Of a stretch of DNA of 46,120 nt, positions 5,189-9,208 are shown piece by piece. The notes under the pieces were generated by a model, which made no database searches, had not been told where the DNA came from, and was given only the letters and a program-made list of their open reading frames with translations. The stretch is from Geopsychrobacter sp. (GTDB lineage Bacteria; Desulfobacterota; Desulfuromonadia; Desulfuromonadales; Geopsychrobacteraceae): contig JAAXQE010000155.1 in assembly GCA_012974425.1 (NCBI GenBank), positions 1 through 46,120 of the forward strand. Direction: 5' to 3'. Position 1 is the first letter of the stretch. The number at the start of each line of letters is the position of its first letter. The position numbers were made by a program, and so were the translations under genes.

Positions 5189-5922
5189 TGATGGAAGAGG
5201 CACGCAAGCGACTGATCTTTGCCCTGGATGTTGATAGCTTTGAGAAGGCCCAGGAGTGGGTTGAGCTGTTGCATCAGCAGGTTGGTCTGTTCAAGGTCGG
5301 TAAGCAGCTTTTTACCCGCTGCGGGCCACGGGTTGTCGAAATGATTCGTGAGCGCGGGGCCGACGTTTTCCTCGATCTCAAATATCATGATATCCCCAAT
5401 ACCGTTGCCAAGGCCGGGGTTGAGGCCTGTCGTCTCGGGGTGGGCATGTTTAATGTCCACGCCCTGGGCGGTCTTGAAATGATGCAGAAAACCGTTGAAG
5501 AGGTTGATGCCTGGTGTCAGCAGCATAACCAGCCACGTCCGATCATGCTGGCGGTGACAATATTGACCTCTTCCACCGAGGAGACCCTGCGTGGTGTCGG
5601 TATCGATCGACCGGTAGCGGAGATGGTGCCGCGCCTGGCCGAGTTGACCAAACTGGCGGGTTTCGACGGTGTGGTTGCTTCCCCCAAGGAGGTCGCATTG
5701 ATCCGTGCGGCCTGCGGCGATGATTTTGCCATTGTGACTCCCGGGGTACGGCCATCTTTTGCGGCCATGGATGATCAGAAGCGGGTGACAACCCCGGCTG
5801 AGGCGATTGCTGCTGGTGCCAGTCACCTGGTGGTTGGCCGTCCGATCTCTGCGGCGGCGGATCCGGCCGCAGCGGCGCGATTGATTCTTGAAGAGATCGC
5901 TGGAGCCTTGAACCTGAAATGA
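5188..5922 (+). CDS. pyrF: orotidine 5'-phosphate decarboxylase
   Basis: Last step of de novo UMP synthesis: decarboxylates OMP to UMP. The 244-residue TIM barrel has the catalytic block LDLKYHDIPNT with D63, K65 and D68, the D-x-K-x-x-D triad of the family. It also has the N-terminal strand FALDVD and the phosphate-binding C-terminal stretch ASHLVVGRPISAA. Either ATG (5188 or 5191) could start translation; the first overlaps the preceding stop codon, and the second gives a one-residue shorter protein. The stop overlaps the rlmB start as ATGA (5919-5922), so DUF4388-pyrF-rlmB form a tightly coupled group. Confidence 0.96.
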   Translation: MMEEARKRLIFALDVDSFEKAQEWVELLHQQVGLFKVGKQLFTRCGPRVVEMIRERGADVFLDLKYHDIPNTVAKAGVEACRLGVGMFNVHALGGLEMMQKTVEEVDAWCQQHNQPRPIMLAVTILTSSTEETLRGVGIDRPVAEMVPRLAELTKLAGFDGVVASPKEVALIRAACGDDFAIVTPGVRPSFAAMDDQKRVTTPAEAIAAGASHLVVGRPISAAADPAAAARLILEEIAGALNLK

Positions 5923-6665
5923 GTGATTTGCTGCATGGTATAAACCCCGTCGCTGAGGCGCTTACTGCTGGCGAGCGCAAGCCGCTTGAATTGATTTTGC
6001 CGAATGGCCGTCTGGCCCCGCGGCTGGAAGAGTTACGCGCCCAGGCTGAAGAGCAGAATGTGCGTATCCGGCTGATCGACAAGCCGGAGCTTGACCGCCT
6101 GGCGGGCCATAATCGCCATCAACAGGTGTTGTTGCGTCTCCCGCCCTTTGTCTACGCCGAGTTTGATCAGCTGCTCGCCTGTTGGCGCAATAGTGGGCGG
6201 AGTGCGTTTTTTCTGATTCTGGATGGTGTTACCGATCCACATAACTTCGGCGCCATCCTGCGTAGTGCCGAGGTAGCCGGTTGTCATGGTGTGTTTGTCG
6301 CCAAGGATCGCAGCTGTTCGGTGACCCCGGTGGTAGAAAAGACCGCGGCCGGGGCGCTCAGCCACCTCTTGCTCTGTCAGGTCACAAACCTCTCACGCAC
6401 GATAGAAGAATTAAAGAAAGAGGGGGTCTGGTGCTATGGCCTGGCAGGAGACGAGGGCTCGCAGGATCTCTTCTCTGTCGATTTAACCGGCAACCTGGCC
6501 TTGATTGTCGGCAGCGAGGGGAAGGGGATGCGTCCCAACGTCCGCAACCATTGTGATGGACTGCTGGCGATTCCGATGTCTGGCCAGATTGAATCTCTCA
6601 ATGCTTCAGTTGCGGCGGCCGTCGCCCTGTTTGAGGTCGTGCGCCAGGGTAATGCCAATAAATAG
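5919..6665 (+). CDS. rlmB: 23S rRNA (guanosine-2'-O-)-methyltransferase RlmB-type (TrmH/SpoU family)
   Basis: SPOUT-class, SAM-dependent 2'-O-ribose methyltransferase, by family the enzyme for G2251 in the 23S rRNA peptidyl-transferase region. The 248 residues comprise an N-terminal L30e-like RNA-binding domain (about 1-75) and the knotted catalytic domain. SpoU motif 1 is at about 101-118 (LDGVTDPHNFGAILRS), motif 2 at 196-204 (IVGSEGKGM), and motif 3 from 218 (IPMSGQIESLNASVA). The length and N-terminal LLHGINPVAEAL favour RlmB over the shorter TrmL/TrmH enzymes. The exact target nucleotide is inferred from the family. The start overlaps the pyrF stop. Confidence 0.9.
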   Translation: MSDLLHGINPVAEALTAGERKPLELILPNGRLAPRLEELRAQAEEQNVRIRLIDKPELDRLAGHNRHQQVLLRLPPFVYAEFDQLLACWRNSGRSAFFLILDGVTDPHNFGAILRSAEVAGCHGVFVAKDRSCSVTPVVEKTAAGALSHLLLCQVTNLSRTIEELKKEGVWCYGLAGDEGSQDLFSVDLTGNLALIVGSEGKGMRPNVRNHCDGLLAIPMSGQIESLNASVAAAVALFEVVRQGNANK

Positions 6666-6783
6666 GGACGCTCTTGTTCGTTTGTAGGGGGGGACTTTCG
6701 CGGCTCTGGTCAGGGACGGAGCAAGCTTCAGTCTGGCAACCCGTAATCCCTGTTTCGAACTAATCGATCCGGAAGGTCTCATC

Positions 6784-6988
6784 GTGGAGAAAAACGTTCA
6801 CATCTATGATCGCATTGCGCGAATTGTCCTAGGGCTTGGGCTGCTCGTTTTTTTTCGTATTGAGCAATCATGACTTGCGGGTACTTGCGCTCCTGGGCTT
6901 TATTCCCCTGATTACCGGTTTCGTTGGATTCTGCTTCGTCTATAGCTTGCTTGGTATTAATGGTTGTGCGAGTAAAAAATCATCCTGA
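6784..6988 (+). pseudogene. DUF2892 (YgaP-type) small membrane protein, frameshifted in a T8 run
   Basis: A GTG at 6784 behind a good RBS (GGAAGG, 6771-6776) starts MEKNVHIYDRIARIVLGLGL, typical of the DUF2892 family. The frame stops at TGA 6871-6873. The rest of the family, LRVLALLGFIPLITGFVGFC followed by FVYSLLGINGC, lies in the frame one base over and ends at TGA 6986-6988. The shift falls exactly at eight Ts (6848-6855): with seven Ts the two parts join into one 67-residue protein with two hydrophobic segments. This could be a true mutation, a homopolymer sequencing error, or a slippage site. Neighbours are rlmB upstream and a terminator downstream. Confidence 0.75.
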
Positions 6989-7041
6989 TGATTATCTTTA
7001 AGCGTATTGCCGCAAATTAGTATCGCCGTGCTTTAGTGTCG

Positions 7042-7082
7042 ACTCGGGTGCTTTCATAATTCTGGAAGTACCCGAGTTTTTT
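7042..7082 (+). terminator. intrinsic terminator after the ispG-DUF2892 group
   Basis: Bases 7042-7055 pair with 7064-7077 in a continuous 14-bp stem (two G-U pairs) with loop ATAATTCT, followed by six Ts (7077-7082). This is a strong Rho-independent terminator separating the upstream group from the tRNA-tuf operon. Confidence 0.85.
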
Positions 7083-7233
7083 ATTGATCAGTGGAGTGAA
7101 GCGGGTAGCAGCATGCGTGTGGGCCGACCGGGAGGATGGTCGTGCGCGATGGTGTTAAGTTACTGTTTGGACGCTTGGACTCGCTTTAGCGAAGGCCTCT
7201 CTGTCGCGGGGATATTTTTTTTCGCTAAAAACC
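7083..7233. other. upstream region of the tRNA-tuf operon
   Basis: No gene seen. A 9-base inverted repeat, TTTAGCGAA (7185-7193) and TTCGCTAAA (7221-7229), ends just before the -35 of the first promoter. The T8 tract (7213-7220) and the A-run beside it could act as an AT-rich UP element for the RNA polymerase alpha C-terminal domain. The role of the inverted repeat is unknown. Confidence 0.4.
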
Positions 7234-7262
7234 TTGACACTGATCAAGCCTTGGTATAAATA
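7234..7262 (+). promoter_or_regulatory. promoter P1 of the tRNA-tuf operon
   Basis: A perfect -35 TTGACA (7234-7239) is followed after 17 bases by TAAATA (7257-7262); the overlapping TATAAA at 7255 would give a 15-base spacer. An AT-rich stretch lies directly upstream. Sigma-70 type. Confidence 0.65.
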
Positions 7263-7318
7263 TCGTTGCTTGTCGCGCCTGACCCAAGGGGCCTGTCGAC
7301 GATGCGATAATTTTATGC

Positions 7319-7347
7319 TTGCATTGTCTTTCAAACTGGGGTATAAA
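7319..7347 (+). promoter_or_regulatory. promoter P2 of the tRNA-tuf operon with GC-rich discriminator
   Basis: TTGCAT (7319-7324), 17-base spacer, TATAAA (7342-7347). The bases after the -10 are CGCGCCCG, a GC-rich discriminator of the kind found at stringently controlled stable-RNA promoters. Predicted transcription start is near 7354, just before the first tRNA at 7358. Confidence 0.75.
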
Positions 7348-7357
7348 CGCGCCCGTT

Positions 7358-7433
7358 GCTGGCGTAGCTCAACTGGTAGAGCACCTCACTTGTAATGAGG
7401 ATGTTGCGGGTTCAATTCCTGTCGCCAGCTCCA
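7358..7433 (+). tRNA. tRNA-Thr (anticodon UGU)
   Basis: Complete cloverleaf with acceptor GCTGGCG paired to CGCCAGC and an encoded CCA end. The anticodon loop CTTGTAA gives UGU, reading ACA and other ACN threonine codons. First of four tRNAs upstream of tuf, in the Thr-Tyr-Gly-Thr-tuf order also known from the E. coli tufB operon. Confidence 0.97.
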
Positions 7434-7489
7434 TTTATAAGCTTGACGGGCTTAACCCGACAAAAATTGAATATTGAACAAAGTCCCCT

Positions 7490-7574
7490 GGAGGGGTTCC
7501 CGAGTGGCCAAAGGGATCAGACTGTAAATCTGACGTCGTAGACTTCGGAGGTTCGAATCCTCCTCCCTCCACCA
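7490..7574 (+). tRNA. tRNA-Tyr (anticodon GUA)
   Basis: Class II tRNA with a long variable arm and an encoded CCA. The anticodon loop CTGTAAA gives GUA for the two Tyr codons. The acceptor stem contains one G-U pair at its inner end. Confidence 0.96.
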
Positions 7575-7725
7575 ACTTTGCTCGCCGGATAAGGTTTGGT
7601 TGCTGTATTCCAGGAGACCCTGAGGTCGTTTGAACTGGAGCAGGATTGATGCTGAGGTCCAGTTTATAGGCAGACAACAGTCTGTACAGCAATAGAATGC
7701 GTTTGTGCGCAGTCATGATGTTTAG

Positions 7726-7802
7726 GCGGGAATAGCTCAGCTGGCTAGAGCGTCAGCCTTCCAAGCTGAGGGTCGCGGGTTCGAATCCCGTTTCCCGCTC
7801 CA
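7726..7802 (+). tRNA. tRNA-Gly (anticodon UCC)
   Basis: Acceptor GCGGGAA pairs with TTCCCGC; the CCA is encoded. The anticodon loop CTTCCAA gives UCC, reading GGA/GGG. The 151-base spacer before it (7575-7725) is longer than the others in the cluster and shows nothing I can name; it may serve in RNA processing. Confidence 0.97.
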
Positions 7803-7829
7803 TAAACATCGGTGGCGGTTTTGGTATAA

Positions 7830-7905
7830 GCTCACATAGCTCAGATGGTAGAGCACATCCTTGGTAAGGATGAGGTCATCGGTTCAATTCCGATTGTGAG
7901 CTCCA
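7830..7905 (+). tRNA. tRNA-Thr (anticodon GGU)
   Basis: Acceptor GCTCACA pairs with TGTGAGC; the CCA is encoded. The anticodon loop TTGGTAA gives GGU for ACC/ACU. It is the second threonine tRNA in the cluster and is followed by a 109-base leader to tuf. Confidence 0.97.
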
Positions 7906-8014
7906 TATCGAAACAGCGGACGTTTGTTAAGTGCATCTGCTGCAGAATTCTCAGGCGTGTTCAACTCAAACAAAAACAGTAGACGTTAAAGACGACAAAA
8001 GGGAGGAATAATCA

Positions 8015-9208
8015 ATGGCCAAGGAAAAATTTGACAGATCGAAGCCGCACGTCAATATCGGGACCATCGGTCACGTTGATCACGGCAAAACGACTCTGAC
8101 TGCTGCAATCACCAAGGTTCTGGCTGAGGCCAGCGGTAGTGGCATTGTTAAGGCATTCGATCAGATCGACAACGCTCCAGAAGAGCGCGAGCGCGGTATT
8201 ACTATCGCCACCGCTCACGTCGAGTATGAAACCGAAAATCGCCACTATGCCCACGTTGACTGCCCGGGTCACGCTGACTACGTCAAGAACATGATCACCG
8301 GTGCCGCACAGATGGACGGCGCTATTCTGGTCTGTTCTGCCGCTGATGGTCCGATGCCCCAGACTCGTGAGCACATCCTGCTCGCTCGTCAGGTTGGCGT
8401 TCCTGCTATGGTCGTGTTCCTCAATAAGGCCGACATGGTTGATGACGAGGAGCTGCTCGAGCTGGTCGACATGGAGCTGCGTGAGCTGCTCTCCAGCTAT
8501 GATTTCCCGGGTGATGATATCCCGATTATTGCTGGTTCCGCTCTGGCCGCCCTTGAGGGCCGTGATGACGAAATCGGTAAGAATAAAGTTCTCGAGCTGA
8601 TGGCTGCGGTTGACGAATACATCCCCGAGCCTGCTCGTGCGATCGACCTGCCGTTCCTGATGCCGGTTGAGGATGTCTTCTCAATCTCGGGTCGTGGGAC
8701 TGTTGCGACCGGTCGGGTTGAGCGCGGTATCATCAAGGTTCAGGAAGAGATCGAGATCGTCGGCATGAAGGATACTGCCAAGTCAGTTGTGACCGGTGTT
8801 GAGATGTTCCGCAAGCTGCTCGATCAGGGCCAGGCTGGCGATAACTGCGGTATCTTGCTGCGCGGTCTCAAGCGTGAAGATATCGAGCGTGGCCAGGTTC
8901 TGGCCAAGCCCGGCAGTATCACTCCGCACACCAAGTTCAAGGCTGAGGCCTACATCCTGAACAAGGAAGAGGGTGGTCGTCATACCCCGTTCTTCAAGGG
9001 GTATCGTCCTCAGTTCTATTTCCGTACCACTGATGTCACCGGGATTGTTACTCTCCCTGAAGGCATCGAGATGGTTATGCCTGGCGACAATATCGCTATG
9101 ACCGTAGATCTGATCACTCCGATCGCCATGGACAAAGAGCTGCGCTTCGCTATCCGCGAAGGTGGCCGTACTGTCGGCGCCGGTGTTGTCAGCGAAGTTA
9201 TCGAGTAG
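8015..9208 (+). CDS. tuf: elongation factor Tu, copy 1
   Basis: GTPase that delivers aminoacyl-tRNA to the ribosomal A site. The 397 residues comprise the G domain with P-loop GHVDHGKT (about 18-25), switch region, DCPGH and NKAD motifs, then two beta-barrel domains. The start is fixed by the RBS GGGAGG and the [15 protein letters not shown]-terminus. The protein is identical to that encoded at 24384-25577. At DNA level the copies differ at 14 synonymous sites in the first 237 bases and 2 near the 3' end, with 938 identical bases between (8252-9189), the pattern left by gene conversion. It is co-transcribed with the tRNAs upstream and probably with rpmG downstream. Confidence 0.98.

Follow-up and report, generated by a model that had tools for sequence, protein, structure and literature searches.

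A small DUF2892 gene with a frame break at a run of eight T residues in Geopsychrobacter sp.

The locus and the two halves of the gene

The window (the whole stretch of DNA that was analysed, 46,120 nucleotides) is contig C104 of a draft genome of Geopsychrobacter sp., which has a size of 3.28 Mb, consists of 327 contigs and is 99.8% complete. The gene studied here sits between a gene at 5919–6665, the product of which is a SpoU methylase and which we take to be rlmB, and four tRNA genes (7358–7905), the first being tRNA-Thr; these four tRNAs are the only Rfam matches found in the region 6600–8100. Judged by its named relatives, the rlmB protein comes from a Desulfuromonadales-like bacterium. 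On the forward strand a GTG start codon is present at 6784–6786, and its frame closes at a TGA stop (6871–6873), giving a product of 29 residues. The next frame is open as far as a stop at 6986–6988; the corresponding ORF, as listed mechanically, begins at TTG 6836. The frame break is located at a run of exactly eight T residues (6848–6855, +; sequence read, alignment and run count), hereafter a T8 run. Concerning the flanking signals, GGAAGG is found at 6771–6776 (+), 7 bases 5′ of the GTG, and read by eye it would be a good ribosome-binding site for the start at 6784. An intrinsic-terminator-like hairpin with a T tail lies 3′ of the gene (7041–7078, +); the consensus scan that identified it returned two sites in 6600–7440, compared with a mean of 1.3 in shuffled sequences. 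A promoter scan of 6600–7440 gave no site on the forward strand and one on the reverse strand.

We scored both halves and the read-through protein by hmmscan against Pfam-A, in which PF11127 (YgaP-like_TM, presumably the former DUF2892) has a gathering cut-off of 25.3 bits. The upstream half (6784–6873), approximately the first 22 residues of which match the N-terminal part of the family, aligns with profile positions 2–22 (E 0.0022, 18.5 bits; below the cut-off when taken alone), and the downstream half (6851–6988, +) aligns with positions 33–65 (E 3.9e-9, 37 bits; above the cut-off when taken alone). The read-through protein covers positions 2–65 of 66 (60.1 bits, E 2.3e-16). Also, a PF11127 profile search of the whole genome independently recovers the downstream half (35.7 bits). 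Because the two halves match neighbouring parts of the profile and the read-through protein attains 60.1 bits, the frame break cannot be put down to two ORFs lying together by chance: based on the sequence, both halves are one DUF2892/YgaP-like_TM gene, predicted to encode a small membrane protein. Proteins of this family have two membrane helices. An earlier note on this DNA had described the halves of one gene in adjacent frames with the shift at 6848–6855, a description that the sequence, the coordinates and the profile matches confirm. It had also held that the start codon, the ribosome-binding site and both halves look otherwise undamaged.

Relatives of the gene and distribution of the stretch that contains it

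The downstream half has matches in 7 of the 136 genomes of the order at E≤1e-3 and in 6 of the 395 genomes of the phylum at E≤1e-6, each figure counting the own genome. The best non-self relatives are found in G135 (51% identity over 43 residues) and G005 (50% over 38 residues), and shorter local matches reach up to 65% identity over 23 residues; among the order and phylum genomes searched there is no near relative, the closest being about 50% identical. The same genome contains one other PF11127 match, an ORF of 63 codons starting from ATG (contig C186, locus L001), to which the downstream half gives no tblastn match even at E 10, so the family copy of the own genome is not a close one.

None of the matches to the downstream half in the order (E≤1e-3) and phylum (E≤1e-6) searches contains an internal stop. 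We read 14 homologous places for breaks (L011 and L001 are omitted, as they have no match to the downstream half, and L119 duplicates L003; other PF11127 matches, including two partial ones in G014, lie outside the set), and the frame is open over the entire domain in all 14. The earlier note had proposed a count of the T residues in relatives, and the count goes against a conserved run: over the aligned segment, the longest run of T residues is between 2 and 6 in the 14 places, and the frame is unbroken throughout. The C-terminal motif is CP in 13 of the 14 places and CF in the window gene, and this change in a near-invariant residue would fit relaxed constraint. Apart from CF no decay is seen in the downstream half, and its stop is at the expected place. 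Compared with the YgaP-like_TM family, the window gene is alike in that its two halves correspond to successive parts of the profile; it differs by the broken frame, by CF in place of CP and by having no Crp/Fnr gene directly upstream. The two closest unbroken relatives (L003, 689–1713, and L118, 629–1632), which are those of G135 and G005 and come from different families of the order, each stand behind a gene for a Crp/Fnr-type regulator; in L003 a Thioredoxin_3 protein is encoded upstream as well.

The distribution of the locus within the genus was followed through rlmB, a match to which (E≤1e-60) is found in five of the nine genus genomes, own included; the four genomes with no match at this threshold are uninformative and stand outside the count. 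In all four of the other genomes with an rlmB match, the gene is absent between rlmB and tRNA-Thr. The start of tRNA-Thr lies 146–166 bases beyond the rlmB protein match in these four genus mates, versus about 700 in the window. DNA similarity between them and the window resumes at 7217, 7218, 7251 and 7257, and in the alignment the extra stretch of about 550 bases is a single gap in the genus mates. The stretch with no match in the four comparable genomes, which contains the broken gene, is thus given as 6666–7216 (about 551 bases, ends approximate); the aligner puts the left end of the gap inside rlmB, and therefore the end of rlmB (6665) was used as the left limit. Since this stretch is missing in four of four comparable genus genomes, the DUF2892 gene looks like an accessory, dispensable addition. 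The stretch would be a gain in this genome and not a loss in the genus mates.

Three of the four genus mates are apparently the same contigs as L032–L034 (identical matches) and were counted once. In the loci of rlmB relatives (L032–L111) neither half has a match at E 0.01, which is a weak negative, as several of the contigs end soon past rlmB and the upstream half is short. The gap between rlmB and tRNA-Thr (6666–7357 here) varies across the order: it is below about 166 bases in the four genus mates, and in L035 and L044 the rlmB–tRNA gap is 800–900 bases with DNA that looks coding by eye. The window has a second T8 run (7215–7222) at the right-hand end of the extra stretch, 5′ of the tRNA cluster.

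Concerning a mobile origin, the stretch has no second copy in its own genome (the sole other match is of 19 bases, E 0.85). Phages give no match and viral contigs contain no exact match of 28 bases; plasmids give two weak matches (E 1e-4 and 5e-4). A 16-base direct repeat is present at 6635–6650 and 7138–7153, with 14 of 16 positions identical and a distance of about 503 bases; one of its copies falls within the end of rlmB. It was considered as a target-site duplication and rejected: an equal identity arises in 15 of 200 shuffles.

Runs of eight T residues in the genome

Exact T8 runs number 197 in the genome, both strands counted. The window contains three (1.26 expected; at least three in 14 of 100 shuffles), and the T8 run is not special in this genome. 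We examined 98 distinct T8 runs, drawn from 100 of the 197 places in the genome and from the window. Of these, 24 are enclosed by a stop-to-stop open frame of 200 codons or more and sit 30 or more codons inside it, although some of these may be opposite-strand shadows of a true gene; their position well inside long open frames indicates that not every T8 run is broken by the assembly. At 13 of the 98 runs (L136, L137, L140, L148, L155, L164, L182, L192, L207, L209, L212, L213 and L215) an altered run length lengthens the open frame by at least 100 codons, a count that takes gene-end run-ins and breaks together. Errors or mutations may thus be more frequent than usual at the T8 runs of this assembly. 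A survey of 92 T8 runs based on codon usage called 8 ‘same frame’, 11 ‘strand change’, none ‘shift’ and 73 ‘other’; the run of the window itself is among the ‘other’, so the survey is underpowered for short genes, and nothing was rested on it.

Origin of the frame break

The reading that we favour, and consider probable, is that this accessory gene was recently inactivated by replication slippage in the T8 run. According to it, the run length would be real in the organism, and ordinary slippage during replication would have changed the length of the run by one base in a DUF2892/YgaP-like_TM gene that stands between rlmB and tRNA-Thr. Ribosomes starting from the GTG at 6784 would now yield a 29-residue peptide in which the domain is limited to its first part, and a useful full-length protein would presumably not be made.

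The strongest alternative is that the homopolymer length is wrong in the consensus or assembly and that the gene is intact in the organism; we regard this as possible but clearly the less likely origin. Homopolymers are a classic place for sequencing errors. The otherwise undamaged look of the gene speaks for this alternative, as do the draft state of the assembly with its 327 contigs and the 13 of 98 T8 runs at which another run length extends the open frame by 100 codons or more, whatever the causes. Against it stand the 24 of 98 runs well within long open frames, and the codon-usage survey with no same-strand frame change called at any of 92 runs, a weak test that left the run of the window uncalled too. 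The accessory look of the gene, the CP to CF change and the 24 T8 runs intact in long frames lead us, as a matter of judgement, to prefer a slippage indel to a consensus error. This preference is countered by the GeneTack survey: there, lone breaks confirmed by BLASTp and Pfam are attributed to sequencing errors or indel mutations, and singletons confirmed by BLASTp are expected to stem from sequencing errors and not from real indels (PMC3711429). The present case is like those singletons, being one lone homopolymer break that a family profile confirms and for which no conserved cluster was found, and we found no difference from them.

Phase variation, in which the T8 run would act as an on/off switch of the membrane protein within the population, appears very unlikely. 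In its favour are the position of a homopolymer within the coding sequence of a predicted membrane protein and the preservation of the two halves in their PF11127 matches. However, the run is short and ordinary here (197 exact T8 runs in the genome, three in the window where 1.26 are expected), and no T run is longer than six over the aligned segment of the 14 homologous places.

Recoding, in which some full-length protein would arise through a +1 ribosome slip of tRNA-Phe from UUU to UUC or through slippage of RNA polymerase, is the least probable of the origins weighed. After a one-base forward slip a tRNA has to re-pair, which here means tRNA-Phe moving from UUU to UUC; in the sequence read, a C follows the last UUU, and a +1 slip at the end of the run would be possible on paper. 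Programmed frameshifts are helped by a stimulatory downstream RNA structure, though it is not obligatory, and in 6848–6930 none was found (z +1.79; folding is as good or better in 196 of 200 shuffles). The T run is unconserved and the frames are open in 14 of 14 homologous places.

Published cases point in both directions. Some genes do use A/T runs, and in a large proportion of bacterial genomes selection against such runs becomes visible at a length of nine, with wide variation (Baranov et al., PMC1088944). The window gene resembles the genes with transcriptional slippage described there (Thermus dnaX, IS elements) in having a poly-T run at the frame change; it differs in that the run is of eight rather than nine, is unconserved in the places read and calls for a loss, or a gain of two (PMC1088944). 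Transcripts of Buchnera carry single-base homopolymer deletions, the rate of which rises with run length (15 or 16 such deletions, both figures being given; PMC5574713). On the other hand, rescue by the polymerase needs one U lost or two gained, whereas single-base insertions dominate in transcript homopolymers and homopolymer deletions are rare in E. coli, at under 1% of its deletions; in this transcriptome-wide study, no frame-restoring transcript error was observed (PMC5574713). The clusters of the GeneTack survey comprise five or more frame-broken homologs (PMC3711429); among the 14 places read here, which are a part of the PF11127 matches, none is broken. Programmed recoding thus finds no support, with the conservation of run and frame in the 14 places and the downstream structure counting against it. 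That the run is put to use, either by the UUU to UUC slip of tRNA-Phe or by variation of its length from cell to cell, and that the accessory gene thereby gives a share of full-length YgaP-like protein, is highly improbable.

The earlier note had left a recent mutation, a sequencing error and a slippery site side by side; the first two stand, while the slippery site finds no support here, given the unconserved run, the 14 unbroken frames, the missing downstream structure and the one-base loss (rare in E. coli) or two-base gain that transcriptional rescue would need. The import of the case is small: it may serve as a clean example for reading lone homopolymer frame breaks. If recoding were true, it would add a minor new case of slippage rescue at a non-conserved site. 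Where the site lacks conservation, a lone homopolymer break in an accessory gene would best be taken for an indel or an error and not for recoding.
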